From: Turicimonas muris
GTDB lineage: Bacteria > Pseudomonadota > Gammaproteobacteria > Burkholderiales > Burkholderiaceae_F
Length of the DNA: 64,000 bases
Direction: 5' to 3'
Assembly (NCBI RefSeq): GCF_002221595.1
Contig: NZ_NHMP01000001.1
Span: forward strand, 434,001 to 498,000
The position numbers were made by a program, and so were the translations under genes. The notes under the pieces were generated by a model. That model ran no database searches and was not told where the DNA came from. It was given only the letters and a program-made list of their open reading frames with translations. This document shows, one piece after another, positions 6,917 through 42,192 of this stretch. The stretch's first letter is position 1. Each line of letters begins with the position of its first letter.

Positions 6917-7812
6917 TTAAAAATCCTTAAAAATTCGACGTTCTGTTACCGCACAGCGGAAAGGGAATCCGCCGATTGGTGAATTGATGATCCATCCGAA
7001 GATGGGCTTTTGAGAAAACAGAAAATTCTTAACGGTTTTTCTCGGAGCCGGTCGATTAAGGTCGACAACCATTGGGTGCGAACTGTACAGGAGCCCAAAA
7101 AATAAAAAAAGACGACCAACTCGAGGTGATTTGCGGATATTTGCAAAAAAATGGAAATTCATTCAAGACGGTTAACTATTTATACTCCCTGGGAGGCAGT
7201 TATTGTTTTCGATGGGTGAATAATTTTGACAGAGGGGTAATTAAATAGCGGGTGGTTTTACGAACATTTTCTTTTATCGGAATTTTAAAGCTTAAAGCCC
7301 AGCTTTCAAAGCTAAAGCGAAGACTTAAGTTTTTCATTCGGACTAGATAATGGAGCCGTTAAGAGAGAAAAAGGTCGTTTAAAACTAGTTGTTCTTAACA
7401 TCTTAATCCTTTGTTTTTAAGAAAGATTTCTAGGAAAATAGTTGAATGCTCGAAAAGGAAAAGGTGACTGTGTTAGAGAGAGGGAAAACCCTTAGTTCCT
7501 AATAAAAAAAAAAAAAAAAATAGAAATTTCTTTAAATAATGCGTAGACTCGGAAAAAATTAAAAAGCTCAGGCTGGGAGGGGAACTTGCGCAACAGACGC
7601 ATTCAATAGGCATAGAAAAAGGAATTTTTCCCTTTATTTCTTATGAAAAGGCTTTGTTCTGTCTAAGAATCTTACATGTAAAGTTCTTTAGGTATAGCAA
7701 AGGGTTTGTAAAAATATTGATGCTCCTTCTACTAGCATTACGTTCCCCAACCGACCGATCCATACAAGGTTTCTGGATTTTTATTTATTTTGAATATCTC
7801 AATGAAGACAAT
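6917..7812. other. Intergenic region with 17-bp poly-A tract
   Basis: About 0.9 kb between the divergent primase module and the glycan locus. Two overlapping minus-strand frames (about 6917-7162) show no ribosome site or recognisable protein and are probably spurious. A run of 17 A (7504-7520) lies about 290 bp before the first glycan gene. Slippage there could alter promoter spacing, but I cannot place a convincing promoter. A TTGACA hexamer at about 7226 lacks a good -10. No RNA gene was recognised. Confidence 0.4.
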
Positions 7813-8823
7813 ATGTATAAAGGTAATAAAGTAGCAATTGGAGTCCCTTGTTACAACGAAGCTGTTGCTCTCCCAAAAGTTCTTGAAGACATCACTAAGT
7901 ATTTTCCGGAAGGTGAAGTCTATGTTTTTGACAACAACTCTACTGATGACACTTTCCAAGTTGCAGAAAATTATTTTTCATCCTCTAAACAGATTTTAAG
8001 AACTGAAGAATATGGACTTTTAATGGGGGGGGTATTCAAGGTCAAAGCTAAAGGAAAAGGCAACGTAGTCACCCAATTTTTTTCCATAATCGAGGCTGAT
8101 ATATACGTTATTGTAGACGGAGATGCAACATATGATATTGCGTCATTGAGGTCGATGATTGACATTCTTCTCCAAAAGAGGTTGGACATGGTAGTTGGAA
8201 GAAGAGTTGAAATTGACAGTGATCCGGGGAATAAAGTTTACAGAAAAGGGCATAGGTTTGGAAATAAAGTTATAACTAGTGCTATTGCCTACGTTTTTGA
8301 TCAAAAATCTTCGAAAAGAATTTTCCGAGACATGCTCTCTGGCTTTAGAGTTTTTTCAAGACGTTACGTTAAATCATTCCCTTCTCTATCCCAAGGTTTT
8401 GAAATTGAAACTCAATTGAATGTCCATGCGCTTCAATTAAAAATGAGATGTGAAGAAATTCCAACCCCGTATTACAAGAGACCTGACGGAAGTGAGAGTA
8501 AGTTATCGACTTACAAGGACGGGGTCAGAATTGCCTGGACTATTTTTAAGATTTATGCAACTGAAAAGCCTCTGTTTTTTTATTCAGTTTTGGCAATTTT
8601 TTTCGGATTTTTATCGATCATCTTAGCCGTTCCCATATTAGTCACTTACCTAAATACTGGAATGGTTCCACGCCTACCTACCGCAGTGCTTTCTACTGGG
8701 TTGATGATCTTTGCTTTCCTAAGTTTTGTGGCTGGTATTATTTTGCAAACGGTCACTAAAGGAAGAATTGAATTTAAACGTCTTTTATATCTTTCCTATC
8801 CGGTCCCTCATGAAAAGAAGTAG
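7813..8823 (+). CDS. GtrB-like polyprenyl-phosphate GT2 glycosyltransferase
   Basis: A 336-residue DPM1/GtrB-type enzyme that would move a sugar from a nucleotide donor to undecaprenyl phosphate at the inner membrane. It has a GT-A domain with GVPCYNE (10-16), the DGD metal motif (102-104) in EADIYVIVDGDATYD, and two C-terminal membrane helices (about 255-278 and 291-313). The start at 7813 fits the family N-terminus; a longer in-frame extension to 7654 is not conserved-looking. Codons 71-74 contain a G8 tract (8025-8032), so a one-base slip would truncate the protein; it is in frame here. It overlaps the GtrA gene by 14 bp, and a GT-C-like gene follows, giving a gtr-style trio. Confidence 0.85.
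   Translation: MYKGNKVAIGVPCYNEAVALPKVLEDITKYFPEGEVYVFDNNSTDDTFQVAENYFSSSKQILRTEEYGLLMGGVFKVKAKGKGNVVTQFFSIIEADIYVIVDGDATYDIASLRSMIDILLQKRLDMVVGRRVEIDSDPGNKVYRKGHRFGNKVITSAIAYVFDQKSSKRIFRDMLSGFRVFSRRYVKSFPSLSQGFEIETQLNVHALQLKMRCEEIPTPYYKRPDGSESKLSTYKDGVRIAWTIFKIYATEKPLFFYSVLAIFFGFLSIILAVPILVTYLNTGMVPRLPTAVLSTGLMIFAFLSFVAGIILQTVTKGRIEFKRLLYLSYPVPHEKK
8025..8032 (+). repeat. G8 homopolymer in glycosyltransferase gene
   Basis: Eight consecutive G in the coding strand (ATG GGG GGG GTA, codons 71-74). Poly-G tracts of this length in surface-glycan genes are classic slipped-strand contingency sites in other bacteria. In this sequence the frame is ON. Confidence 0.6.
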
Positions 8824-34043: not shown

Positions 34044-36062
34044 CCCGAGTTTGACACCTATTTTTGCAGATGAGACCAGACGCGCTCTGGGTTCCTCTGC
34101 AAAAAAATTTACCGTCTTTGTAGCGTAAAAGTAGCGTGTTTTAAAAAATTCAGGTATAATATCCTTACAGTAGTCGGAGTCGGAAAAATGCCTTTGCATG
34201 TTTCAGTGGTTAAAGTTAAAAATCATCAATACATCCGTGTCTATTCGAGTTATCGAAATGAAAAAGGACAACCTCGTTCTCGAATAATTGAAAACCACGG
34301 CAGACTTGATGCCGCTTTAGAAAAAGATCCTCAGTATGTGGAAAGACTCAAAGAACGCATTGCTAAGGAGAATGCTCTAGAAGCTCAGAACAAATCTCTG
34401 GAACTTGAAAATCAAGCCAAAAGAAGAATGGATAAGTTGGCTGATTCTGCTAAAGGTCTTAACGAGAAACCGGGCAATTTCAAGAGCCTCAATGTTGGCT
34501 CGGCTCTTATAAGGAAGGTGTGGTTAGATTTAAAAATGCCGGAGATGTTCCGCCATCTTCAAAAAGGCAGAAAAATCCAATATCCCTATGACCAGACTGC
34601 TTACCTTCTGACTGAGCAGAGGTTCTTAAATCCCTCAAGTAAGTTGAAAAGCTTTAATAACCGTGCTCATAGCATCATTGATCACGGCCAAGTCGATCAT
34701 CTTGAAGATTTGTATAAAGTTCTCGATGTGCTTCAAGAAGATAAGAAAACCATCGTCAGACATTTAAATAAAGAAATCCAGAAAAGAACAAAAAGGACTG
34801 TCACGGCTGCCTTTTACGATGTGACCACCTACAGTTTTGAGAGCCACAGTGTCTCTGAATACAAGGATTTCGGTCTAAGCAAAGATCATAAGGTTAACGA
34901 GGTTCAGGTCGTGCTTGGACTTGTTATGGATGAGAACGGCATCCCCATTGACTATGAACTCCTTGCAGGCAACACCAGTGAATTCGGGACGATGGTGCCG
35001 TTGATTAAGAAAATAAAAAATACCTATCATCTCAAACAGCTGATTGTGGTTGCTGACCGTGGCTTGAATTGTGCTGAGAACCTATTTGCTCTCAAAGAAA
35101 TTGGCTGCGACTTCGTTATTGCTCAGAAGTTTAAAAACTCTGCGGCGCAAATAAAGACTCAAATTCTGGATCCCGACAACTGGGAGGAGTATATTTGCAA
35201 AGACGACGGAGAGGTTAAGTGTCAATATAAAACACTGAATGTGACTCAGGAACTGCACGAGAGGAAAGAAAGTCCGACTACTCATCGCCGGTACCGGGGC
35301 CCAAAGGTTCTAGGCACCATGGAACTAAATTGGATCGTCTCTTACAGCCCGGCAAGAGCGGCTAAAGATAAGGCCGATAGAGACAGAGCCATTGAGAAGG
35401 CAAAGAAGGCGGTCGATGATCCAAACAGACTTCGAAGCTGCGGGTATAAATCCCTTATTACGATCCCTAAAGGGACCGGTTCTCCTCGTATAAATTGGGA
35501 CAAAATTGAAGAACAGGCCAAGTGGGACGGTTATTACGTTATTTGTACGAATCTTGAAATTTCGCCTCATGAAGCAACCAGTATTTATCGAAAACTCTGG
35601 CAAATTGAAGATTGTTTTAGAGTCTCAAAAACTCATCTGGAAACACGTCAGTGCTTCGTGTGGACGGATCCTCACATTTATGGACACTTCCTTAGTTGTT
35701 TTATAAGCCTGGTCATTGAAAAATACATGCTCTTCATGCTTAAAAGGGAGTTAGGCAAAGAAGAAATCACACACGACAAGATGCTTGAGAGCATCAAAAC
35801 CGCCAGTGTTGTTTACGATGATATTAACCCTCAGGTGCCTCTTTATTTAAGACTGTATGAGGCTGGGTTGTTCGACCGAATGTCCACCGTATTTGGGCTG
35901 GACGCTCTCAATCGAGTGGAAACTCCGTCTTCTCTAAGAAGGAAATTACATTTGCCGATTGCAAAAACTTTAGCTACACAGACGTAATTTTTATAAAGTC
36001 TGGGAACCTCGATGGAGCCTAGGTTCCCGCAGATTTCTTGATGAATCTGGTGTCAAAGTCGG
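34044..36062 (+). mobile_element. IS1634-family element C
   Basis: Ends are CCGAGTTTGACACC (34045-34058) and, inverted, CCGACTTTGACACC (36049-36062), a 13/14 match. One transposase gene lies inside. The element is flanked by a 52-bp perfect direct repeat. Long and variable target duplications have been reported for IS1634 and IS1549, which supports the family assignment. Confidence 0.88.
34188..35987 (+). CDS. IS1634-family DDE transposase (element C)
   Basis: A 599-residue transposase. Catalytic positions are visible in AAFYDVTTYSFESHS, LIVVADRGLN and YRKLWQIEDCFRVSKT. The YREKGQ-like N-terminal strand region and the long insertion before the last acidic residue match the IS1634 branch. The start follows the left end by 143 bp. 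The gene is intact. Confidence 0.88.
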   Translation: MPLHVSVVKVKNHQYIRVYSSYRNEKGQPRSRIIENHGRLDAALEKDPQYVERLKERIAKENALEAQNKSLELENQAKRRMDKLADSAKGLNEKPGNFKSLNVGSALIRKVWLDLKMPEMFRHLQKGRKIQYPYDQTAYLLTEQRFLNPSSKLKSFNNRAHSIIDHGQVDHLEDLYKVLDVLQEDKKTIVRHLNKEIQKRTKRTVTAAFYDVTTYSFESHSVSEYKDFGLSKDHKVNEVQVVLGLVMDENGIPIDYELLAGNTSEFGTMVPLIKKIKNTYHLKQLIVVADRGLNCAENLFALKEIGCDFVIAQKFKNSAAQIKTQILDPDNWEEYICKDDGEVKCQYKTLNVTQELHERKESPTTHRRYRGPKVLGTMELNWIVSYSPARAAKDKADRDRAIEKAKKAVDDPNRLRSCGYKSLITIPKGTGSPRINWDKIEEQAKWDGYYVICTNLEISPHEATSIYRKLWQIEDCFRVSKTHLETRQCFVWTDPHIYGHFLSCFISLVIEKYMLFMLKRELGKEEITHDKMLESIKTASVVYDDINPQVPLYLRLYEAGLFDRMSTVFGLDALNRVETPSSLRRKLHLPIAKTLATQT

Positions 36063-37709: not shown

Positions 37710-40700
37710 TTAAAAAGCAATCTTCAAAGTTGCGCCGACCCCATTAGATTTAATTTTGCTGCCGTAGGCTCCATAATAAGAGACTCCTAAGGCGACTCGT
37801 TTGCCCAACTGAGCTTCAACACCCAGACCAACTGAAGCAACTGCAGAGAGTTTTTCACTCTGGATCTTAGCAGTGGCGCCGTTACCAAATTTCAGAGTAG
37901 ATTTTCCTCTGGTGTCGCCCATGAATTGGGTCCAGTTCACATCTGCAACCGCTTTAAACTTGGCTGACCCAACATCAAAAGGAACTTTAGCTCTAACTCC
38001 TACATTGGAGACGGCTAAGTTTTGCTTGTCAAAGTCTGTTTTAACTTGACCGCCTGCATAGTTTTCGCTGAATCCGTCGGCAGACAGATGCATCCATGCC
38101 AAACCGACATAAGGTTCAACTTCGACAGAGCCAAGGTTCAAACCGGTGTAAGCAGCTTCTGCAAAGATTTGTGCAACGCTGGCGTTGTAGCTCGGGGAAG
38201 AACCAAATGTTTGGTTCTTATAGATTAAGCTTCTAGCTGAGTCTCTATCCTGATGAGTGTAGGCAAATCCATAGTTCAAGCGAACCGGATTAAGTTTTGA
38301 CTGGCCATAGATACCGAAGTGTAGATCGTTGGAGTCAATCTTTCCATCGCTGTGAGCTTTAAATTTAGTCTTGCCGGCTCCAAAGAATACACCAACTTTA
38401 TTGTTGAGGTTGATGTCAGCCTCTAAACCTACCAAACCGGTATAGAAGTCAGCATCCATCTTTGAAGAGGCAGTGCGATCCATCTTGGACCAGTTGCCTA
38501 CGGCAGACATCCAAAGACGTGCGCGACCTTCGTCAACATCTGCAACTCTGGCGGCGCCGTCGATACCGATTGCTTGATCTTTGACCGAGCGGATGAGCGA
38601 TTGCCCGTTGGCAATCGTCATCGCATTAGCTGTAGCATGGATGTCATTAGCCAAAGAAGCTATGGTGTTTCTAGCCTCTTCTTTTGTAGCACTGGTTAGA
38701 CCAGCCAGCAGTGTTGAATCAGCTGTAAGTGCGTTAGCTACTGATTTTCCGTTTGCATTGAGAGCATAATCGGCAAGAGTCTTATCGCCTTTTTCCAATG
38801 TACCGGTAATGGTGTTTCCATTCAATGTAACGGTATGATTTACTAACGCATAATCAGGAGAAACGATAGCATTGTTAAAGCCTTCAATGTTTTCGGCCGT
38901 AACGGTACCGGTCTGAGGGTTCCCGTTATACGCTTCTTCGAAAACATTCTTTGTCAAAGAATCAACACCGATCTGTGCACCCGGGTTAAACGTCAGGTTT
39001 CCAACCTGAACATTTTGATCTGCAACAATAGCATATGTGCCGCCGTTATTAACAACAACATTTGCTTTATTGACGGCAGCTCTAGTCACTCCTGCAGCCG
39101 TATTTAACAGACCTTTTTGTGTGAAGGTATCGTTGTAGCTTTCAAGCACACCGAATGTGCCTCCGTTTACATTAACTGTACCGGTTCCAAAGGATTCCGT
39201 GAAACCGTAAAGGGCACCTTCTTTAACAGTTGTTCCGCCGGTGTAACTATTGTTGCCTGTCATCACCAAAGTACCGGATCCTGATTTGATTAATGCGCCT
39301 TTATATAAGCCATTATCAATCTTATTCTGGATGTACGCAGCACGAGCGGCATAGTATTCTTTACGCCACTGTTCAGCTTGTTCTGGAGAAACAGCATTGT
39401 CATAGAAATCTAAGTTTCCATCCAAAACTACTAAGTCGTCTCCAAGAGTGTAAGCACCTCCTGCAGCTGGATCTGTGCCATTCTTGGTTGCTTCCATCCA
39501 AGCAAGATCTTCCTTTTCTCTCTGCTGTAAACCAGCCTCGATGATGTCATTGCTCCAAACGTCTAGTGGCTCATTAAGACGATACTCAAAGTGATCCAAG
39601 AACTGACCGGGACCGTACATGCCTTTTTCTAGATCAGGCATACCCCAACCGTAGATCACATCGGGAGTGCCTTCAGCAGCAGTCCAGTTTGTAAACGGTT
39701 GACCATTCGGTCCAACATGGCTCGCTGTCGTGTACATGACATCTTTTACCTGGATGGCTGTCATGCTTGGATAACGAGACTGCAAAACAGTAAAAGCACC
39801 GGAGATTTGAGGATCTGATGCGGAAGTACCATTAAATCCTGTTGTAGTCAGACGACCGTCTGCGAGCTGAGTGGTGACATAAGTAGTTCCGATTCCAGGG
39901 TATGCGGTTGGACCGGACATCGACCACCACTTGGCCAAACCGGCTTTACAGTATGTTGCCTGCATATATTGGTCATTATCTCCGCGAGTCTGCATGACGC
40001 CGACTGCATTTAACCAATTCTTTTCGGCTTCCGGATGGAAGTATGGGTAAAGACCCTTAAGATAAGGTGTTCCTCTATCTTGGTTACCAGCGGCCCAAGA
40101 GAGAATAACGTTAGTGCCTTTTACTGCATCATATGCGCCGTCTAAGAAACTGGGTTTGTCACCATATTTCAATTTGAAATACATGTATTCCCATTCAAAT
40201 GCAGACGGGTTCTTTGAGTATTGATCAGCACCGGGGACGTCATTTAACCCTAAGAAACTATAGTCACCGGAGAAAGTAACTGCATAGGCAGCGGCGGCGG
40301 TGTCGTAAGTCCCTTTACCATCTAAAAGGTCCTGCATTTCATCCGGAGTTAAGATATAACCGCCTGAACTGTAAATCTTCGTATTAGTGCCGTACGAGTT
40401 ATTGATCATGCCGCCGCGATAAGCTCCGTTGGCGTCGATAATTGCATCGGCAAGTGCCTTATAACCTTTGTTATAGAAGGTGTAGTCTTGGAAAGGACCG
40501 TAATTATTGTTGTCGTTTGCTCCTGTATTCCCAACAATGACATCAGCTTTAAATGCAACACCATGGCCCCATTCTCCATTTCTTTCGGCGCCAATAACAC
40601 CAGTTACCTGTGTTCCATGTGCATCATTAATTGGAATTGTGTAATTGCCTGTAACGTCAAATTCTTCCCCTTCTGTAAAGGGTTGACCTGCTCCAGGGGT

Positions 40701-41142
40701 CGGAGTTTGACCTTTAGTAATTTTTGAGTAAATGCTTTGAGGATAGCGGTTTCCGCTTGAACCGTAAGTACCTGTTACATGTGTAACCGTGATACGCGGT
40801 GTATTCAAATCAGGATTTCCGAGCCAAGCAGCAGAATCCATTACACCGGTCATTGTGTTTTGGCCGAAATAGCCAAGGGCGTAGGCAGAAGAGGCATTCA
40901 TTGCTCCTAAGCCCCAATTGTAGTTATATTCTGTGGTCTCCCAGGAAGCTTTATCGCCAATTACTCCGGGTTCAACATACGCAGCAACTGAATTACCCCC
41001 CCCCTGTTGTCAGCAGGATAAGTCCAGTCAGAGCAACAGCTGCTACTGATTTAGTCCTTTTGCCGCGTGATGTTTGCAACTCGCTTGTGGTAACAAATGT
41101 CTGAGTAACATCGTTCCATATTGCTTTAAAGATTTTATTCAT
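37710..41142 (-). CDS. S8 serine protease autotransporter, frame broken by poly-G tract
   Basis: The real start is ATG at 41142 (GGAG upstream), giving an ESPR-type extended signal (MNKIFKAIWNDVTQTFV...). The frame then meets a G9 run (40996-41004 on the plus strand as C9) and stops at once. With eight G it reads on into the 1,063-residue frame 37710-40901, for a total near 1,143 residues. That frame has the subtilisin triad (D in GVMDSAAW, H in NDAHGTQVTG, S in NGTSASDPQ), a single autotransporter-associated beta repeat (GALIKSGSGTLVMTGNNSYTGGT) and a C-terminal beta-barrel ending in ATLKIAF. It is a surface or secreted protease, OFF in this sequence, and a likely phase-variable gene. Confidence 0.87.
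40996..41004 (-). repeat. G9 contingency tract in autotransporter signal peptide
   Basis: Nine G on the coding strand directly after codons for LLTT in the signal peptide. G9 gives TAA right after the run; G8 restores the protease frame. Confidence 0.8.
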
Positions 41143-42192
41143 TGAAATTCTCCATTTTCTTTGAGAAAGAGAAATCTAAGTTCGCTAACGTCGTTCCTCA
41201 ATTAACAGTCAGCGGTCTTCATAAAAGACCTTTACACTTTAAAACAATATGTAAAAAAATGAATGAGCAACAACCCTTATAAAAATTACCGAAATATCTT
41301 TCTTTTGCCTCTGCTGTTCAAAATAATTTCAAAGCAAATTCAAGAGGTTGATTTTATCGGTTTTCGCTATCATGTTGTTCTTTCCCCAAAACAGGCCTTT
41401 CTGTCCGGAGAGTCCTATCTGTAGAGGCGGAGGTCTACGTTTTCCGGTTGCTGCCCGTATATCCGGATTCAATGGTCACTGCACTAAGTTCTTTCAGGTC
41501 ATTAAATAAGGCCTGAAATATTGCGCTCAGCGATAGATTTGCCATTTATTATATGAGGCTCTGCGCCTTGATAACTCTAAGATTAGAACAGCCATGGGAG
41601 CTCTTTGGTTAAGGGTTTCGGAGTATAAAACTCTCACCATTGCCTCAGAGCCAGTAACGATAACCTGTATTCTGAACCTTTGTTTAGGATCTTAAAATAC
41701 ATTGGCTTTTTCCTTTAGCCTCTTCATCGAGGCATTCACATGGTTGCTCCTGATAATAGATACTGTGCAGAGACGTAGAAATCTTGAGAAGATGGGAAAT
41801 CATTATTCCGCAAGTTCGCAAGAATAACCTTCAAGATGGATTTCAGGGAAACTTATGAAGTTCAGGTAGCCGGAACAGGTTTCTGGATCCTAAAAAAATC
41901 CTCTGTCTCAGACGTCATGATCTGTCGAAATGACTTTATGGCAAGTGTGGAAGGTGTAAGTAGTAACGGACCGCAGCGGCATTAAAGTCGAGAACACTTT
42001 ACATAAAAGTCATGAGACATACGCTTTGGTTCTTTGGCTATGGAGAACGAGTTGGAAAAGACTCTCAAGCCAAGTGGAGCTGAATGCCTAGGAGACGGGG
42101 CACGGAGCGTCCCCAAGCAAAAATGCTTAAATAGTATTTGTATGCAATGAAATAGAAGACCTATCTTACAATAATTGCATCTTGAGCTCGAA
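41143..42192. other. 1.05-kb region without a recognisable gene
   Basis: Upstream of the autotransporter and downstream of the dipeptidase. A 49-codon frame (41836-41985, MDFRETYEVQVAGTGFW...) and a minus-strand 75-codon frame (41982-42209) are present, but neither has a clear ribosome site or known family. The first ~200 bp should hold the autotransporter promoter. The rest is probably decayed coding sequence. Confidence 0.3.

Follow-up and report, generated by a model that had tools for sequence, protein, structure and literature searches.

Is a surface-protein gene that is cut in two by a run of nine guanines switched off by that run, or is it a gene on its way to being lost? The question is raised by an autotransporter gene on the minus strand of a 64-kb stretch of DNA from Turicimonas muris (hereafter the window, meaning the whole 64,000 nucleotides analyzed), a relative of the gut commensal Parasutterella. 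Judging from the sequence, we think it probable that this type Va autotransporter is under slipped-strand (poly-G) phase variation and is OFF at its present tract length, G9, and we place the locus among about 20 such poly-G loci in the source genome assembly (G000). The parts of the gene are the following:

41150..41153, minus strand: GGAG, a likely ribosome-binding site 7 nucleotides upstream of the ATG (read directly)
41005..41142, minus strand: ESPR-type extended signal peptide piece, 46 codons 5' of the tract (PF13018, E 7.8e-13)
40996..41004, minus strand: G9 tract, after codon 46 (read directly)
40993..40995, minus strand: TAA immediately 3' of the tract, in the signal-peptide frame at the G9 length
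37710..40901, minus strand: passenger and barrel open reading frame, 1063 codons from the first ATG, with zero internal stops
39642..40850, minus strand: Peptidase_S8 domain (E 3.1e-21), with the D, H, N and S letters kept, the motif context drifted, and fast evolving
39210..39293, minus strand: PATR repeat of the passenger (PF12951, E 2.4e-10)
37776..38516, minus strand: Autotransporter beta-domain, evolving at normal rates (PF03797, E 1.4e-41)

A preliminary description of the locus had placed an ESPR start at 41142 and a G9 run at 40996-41004 followed by TAA, and direct reading confirms both the coordinates and the letters. Its statement that the tract splits the signal peptide from the passenger also holds: the 46-codon ESPR piece and the frame that carries the S8 domain, the PATR repeat and the barrel are different, with the passenger frame open from 5 bases 5' of the G9 and through the tract. 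Of the ribosome site and the beta-barrel, both described as intact, the first is represented by a likely site (GGAG), and the barrel has codon-position rates like those of a relative. With an ESPR, a passenger and a C-terminal beta-domain all present (PF13018, PF12951 and PF03797 above cut-off), the gene is by its domains a type Va autotransporter, and its product a predicted secreted surface protein. The gene bears these marks of a poly-G contingency locus: a G run of at least eight early in the coding sequence, a change of frame between the 5' and the 3' piece, and an open remainder. At such a locus, replication slippage would alter the length of the tract in some cells; those with an in-frame length, a part of the population, would make and export the protein, and in OFF cells translation would end just after the export signal.

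G000 has more runs of this length than chance would give. Exact G runs number 66 for G6, 3 for G7, 3 for G8, 18 for G9 and 1 for G10, and the dip at G7 and G8 followed by a second peak at G9 is not a random decay of counts with length. The 64-kb window by itself is mildly unusual in having one G9 (shuffle mean 0.07; 6/100 shuffles contain one). Genome-wide there are 22 runs of at least eight G, each rechecked, and their concentration in contingency-type gene classes supports the slipped-strand reading that the preliminary description had proposed. These counts also bear on whether the G9 at 40996-41004 is a homopolymer error of sequencing or assembly in a gene that is truly continuous. The tract was read from one draft assembly (2.89 Mb, 20 contigs), on which the reading depends, but error would hardly yield 18 runs of exactly nine, clustered in contingency-type genes and of a type common to other species, and a single misread length would leave the class of tracts standing. 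We regard such an error as very unlikely.

The Autotransporter domain has 20 matches in G000, two of them adjoining on C15, which makes about 19 genes, and eight of these genes have a tract (Fisher p 4e-13, assuming about 2500 genes). Counted by tract, 9 of the 22 lie inside autotransporter genes or begin upstream of the open frame by no more than 140 bases (binomial p 2e-9 to 1.5e-8 if each gene is taken to have a territory of 4-5 kb). Five of the nine separate a 5' piece from a passenger, one is in frame, and three begin 101-140 bases upstream:

Split autotransporter genes: the window locus, C14:66734 (also with an ESPR), C5:30075, C11:558937 and C11:620605
In-frame autotransporter tract: C15:312237
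Upstream autotransporter tracts: C15:312969, 109393 and 123415

Each split gene has a start-codon piece of 22-49 codons that ends at the tract and a passenger that is open in another frame, although the 5' piece at C11:620605 is counted from a GTG and is only a putative signal peptide. At C5:30075 the passenger frame has its own TTG six codons 5' of the tract; this C5 autotransporter (L039:6057-10449) also shows a second frame break further down, where frames of 1052 and 414 codons overlap. The tracts C15:312237 and C15:312969 belong to the same gene. One protein of 1629 amino acids matches no Pfam family when searched whole; searched separately, its final 317 residues match the Autotransporter domain. 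With tracts in or shortly upstream of seven other surface-protein genes as well, the window gene is best read as one among many random on/off switches.

The remaining tracts of G000 include further genes of contingency type. At L049:5724-5733, a G10 stands at the beginning of the reading frame of an N6_N4 methyltransferase that is followed by a ResIII gene, and at L052 (C15:276829-276837) a G9 lies in frame within an Eco57I-type methyltransferase; both are possible cases of phase-variable DNA modification, as predicted from the sequence. Another tract is in a nucleotide-sugar dehydrogenase gene. Three tracts occupy a row of small genes adjoining prophage tail fibre genes (L040:7493-9024), and the small tract-bearing genes of this prophage tail region have no PHROG match. 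Comparable rows with G9 or G10 tracts are found at L088:8743-11067 (four tracts) and L122:3031-5381 (six tracts), and combinatorial switching is possible in all three. A few tracts of G000, such as a G8 at a cytochrome oxidase gene, may be chance occurrences. Within the window itself a second tract, G8 then TA, occurs at 8025-8032 (+) within the open frame (7654-8823) that encodes a family 2 glycosyltransferase, and a transposase gene (PF01609) with a single open frame of 599 codons lies near the autotransporter locus at 34188-35987 (+).

Related genomes were compared using a set of 61 genomes, in which G006 is Parasutterella excrementihominis and G032 is P. muris (identities that come from sequence matches to L001, L002 and L088, loci that are named or from IMG, the last assigned to P. 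excrementihominis by its match with G006). In six related genomes, 51 tracts chosen for having a TA 3' flank have lengths of 8 (7 tracts), 9 (35), 10 (8) and 15 (1). The same split of an open frame recurs among them, with 40 codons 5' and at least 998 codons 3' of the tract in L099, 41 and 1004 in L110, 53 and 1002 in L118, and 50 and 981 in L128. Four similar, non-identical sequences of G016 have G9, G9, G9 and G10 (L130, L133, L134), and tandem genes of G032 have G9 or G10, their six tracts giving three in-frame joins, two out of frame and one on the opposite strand. These differences are the nearest sign of slippage that the sequences offer, being differences between copies and not between clonal cells. 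In G001, another species of the genus, a LysR-type gene adjoining an S8 autotransporter is split by G9-TAA (L103:2304-2312, the same place in L056); its 58-codon first piece is a LysR-type helix-turn-helix (PF00126, 8.8e-19).

The differing lengths also speak to an alternative in which the DNA does not change at all and RNA polymerase or the ribosome slips in a programmed way at G9-TAA, giving full-length protein at a set ratio. That most tracts are exactly nine long, and that in several cases the 5' piece meets an in-frame stop codon after the G run, would suit it. Against it, DNA length differs among similar or tandem copies in relatives, and of the 14 TA-flanked tracts of G000 six do not fit: three stand outside genes, either upstream or between them, and in three more the coding strand carries C. 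Programmed slippage therefore strikes us as highly improbable.

The TA of the TAA at 40993..40995 is also the usual 3' flank of G9 tracts in this lineage. Counting exact G9 runs with no G within two bases on either side, TA comes next in 11/14 cases in G000, 7/7 in G006, 4/7 in G001, 3/7 in G016 and 2/9 in G021; across 23 family genomes the figure is 29/56, versus 1/37 across 14 genomes from other families of the order. All four tracts of a P. excrementihominis prophage are G9 then TA. The pattern GGGGGGGGTA is found 117 times versus 34 for the reversed pattern in 37 family genomes, and 38 versus 47 times in 24 genomes outside. A T lies directly 3' of 14/18 exact G9 runs in G000 versus 14/66 G6 runs (Fisher p 1.7e-5). 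The base 5' of the tract shows no preference, and no longer shared motif was found beyond TA, with C rare at the next base (2/65) and T in excess at +9 (35/65). Selection for an OFF-frame stop codon was considered as the whole cause of the flank and rejected, since no stop codon could matter for the six G000 tracts that lie outside genes or read as C in the coding direction. The TA flank of the G9 tracts in this lineage is new and unexplained. It may favor slippage, mark where a dedicated factor acts, or be a side effect of the way the tracts originated. More speculatively, the switch in Parasutterella and its relatives could be a defined element, GGGGGGGGGTA, on which a lineage-specific factor or mutational process, host- or phage-borne, acts to maintain both the length and the 3' flank, so that the loci would share a common machinery beyond passive slippage; we hold this to be rather unlikely.

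What remains is the possibility that the frameshift is fixed, the gene is turning into a pseudogene, and the G run is incidental. Several observations weigh against a switch, and some of them favor decay. S8 homologues were found in 9/61 genomes (match at E up to 1e-40), and the set compared here comprises, besides the window gene, 12 genes from 8 genomes, each with its 5' region (both G001 copies extend past contig ends). None of the 12 has a G run of six or more in the 5' coding region. Three of them are broken, though not by G runs: P. excrementihominis has a second copy (L142, G006) in which the frames of the ESPR piece and the passenger differ with no G tract, and one G016 copy and one G009 copy have an internal stop each. 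In the comparison across relatives that the preliminary description called for, these homologues show no 5' coding tract, and other tracts in relatives vary in length. Moreover, the spread of lengths in G000 is narrow (18/22 tracts exactly nine), and an IMG copy of the G000 prophage is identical over 9993 bases, being probably the same genome. In viral contigs, queries with the prophage region for strain variants returned only the genome's own copy, P. excrementihominis and remote relatives, and no relative of the window autotransporter was found among them. MutS is also present (MutS_V in G000; 58/61 genomes), which may keep slippage modest, and for the same reason a loss of MutS was rejected as what causes the tracts. 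As the homologues have no 5' coding tract, the tract of the window gene probably arose within its own lineage; the homologue of G011 has a G15 about 640 bases upstream of the match.

The state of the protease half (residues 1-533) adds to the case for decay. Its terminal branch is 1.86 changes per column long in the window gene versus 0.084 in the same-genus L055, with the reservation that the placement of so long a row in the tree is unsure, that the branch of L143 is longer still, and that L137 covers the first part only. Change rates at codon positions 1/2/3 are 0.307/0.281/0.576 for the window gene (where L055 and L135 agree) and 0.114/0.065/0.450 for L055 measured likewise against L135 and L136. 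Passages of PMC7168839 further describe capC autotransporter genes of Campylobacter that decay by lineage, not by tract length. Despite the long branch, however, the 1063 codons of the window gene contain no stop, the protease half retains its third-position excess, and the barrel half (534-1063) is normally constrained (0.102/0.056/0.496, compared with 0.083/0.045/0.525 for L142). Simple decay, which should hit both halves equally, is the less likely course; four more autotransporter genes of G000 show the same kind of split at a tract. The argument against decay made in the preliminary description therefore stands as far as the open frame and the normal barrel go, but the broken, tract-less homologues keep decay as a rival, one that we consider unlikely. 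A fast protease half joined to a constrained barrel may reflect diversifying selection on the exposed domain, relaxed selection there, or its replacement by a divergent copy.

Phase variation of the autotransporter, then, is the explanation we prefer, and the switched protein need not be a protease. Aligned with its relatives, the window protein has the catalytic Asp, His and Ser and the oxyanion Asn, so that a triad described as intact is so in its letters; the surrounding motifs have drifted, in a half that evolves fast. DSG has become DSA and HGTH has become HGTQ, both canonical in 9/9 aligned relatives, and GTSMxAPH has become GTSASDPQ, canonical in 7/8 relatives that have this stretch. 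The context of an active S8 protease (D-[ST]-G, HGTHV and GTSM-x-AP-H, a consensus drawn in part from the aligned relatives) is therefore missing, with DSA, HGTQV and GTSASDPQ in its place. Fusolisin (PDB 8axg), an S8 autotransporter protease, matches part of the S8 domain (query 274-440, E 1.2e-13); it differs from the window protein, in which motif residues next to the catalytic letters are gone. An AlphaFold2 model of the protease half built from 3 sequences has a mean predicted local distance difference test score (pLDDT) of 29.3. The drifted motifs make it doubtful that the protein still cuts other proteins, and to call it an intact, functional protease was an overstatement. It is most likely a surface-exposed, diversifying factor of protease ancestry.

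The mechanism would be of a known kind, poly-G switching being known in Campylobacter. Passages of PMC7168839 describe Campylobacter autotransporters with a coding poly-G tract (capD) or a promoter tract (capC), the commonest length of the C. jejuni capC tract being G9, and those of PMC6321876 a phasome in which poly-G tracts of at least seven peak at 9 (53%) and 10 (26%). As far as these passages go, the window gene resembles capD and capC as an autotransporter gene with a G tract in or upstream of the coding sequence; it differs in lineage and in having an ESPR, an S8 passenger and a tract that closes the signal peptide and has TA as its 3' flank. G000 likewise resembles the phasome they describe in its genome-wide poly-G loci, 18/22 of its tracts (at least eight) being G9. 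MutS is present here, and the 3' TA flank is described for the present lineage. In the open-licence PMC literature, no paper on phase variation or autotransporters in Parasutterella, Sutterella or Turicimonas, nor one on homopolymer phase variation in the gut microbiome, was found among the matches listed; passages of PMC13101326 concern another subject. The TA flank offers a concrete, testable oddity concerning the origin or upkeep of such tracts. If the switching is true, a group of gut commensals phase-varies on a Campylobacter-like scale, in surface proteins, restriction-modification and prophage tail genes, and that would matter for the persistence of commensals in the face of immunity and phages.
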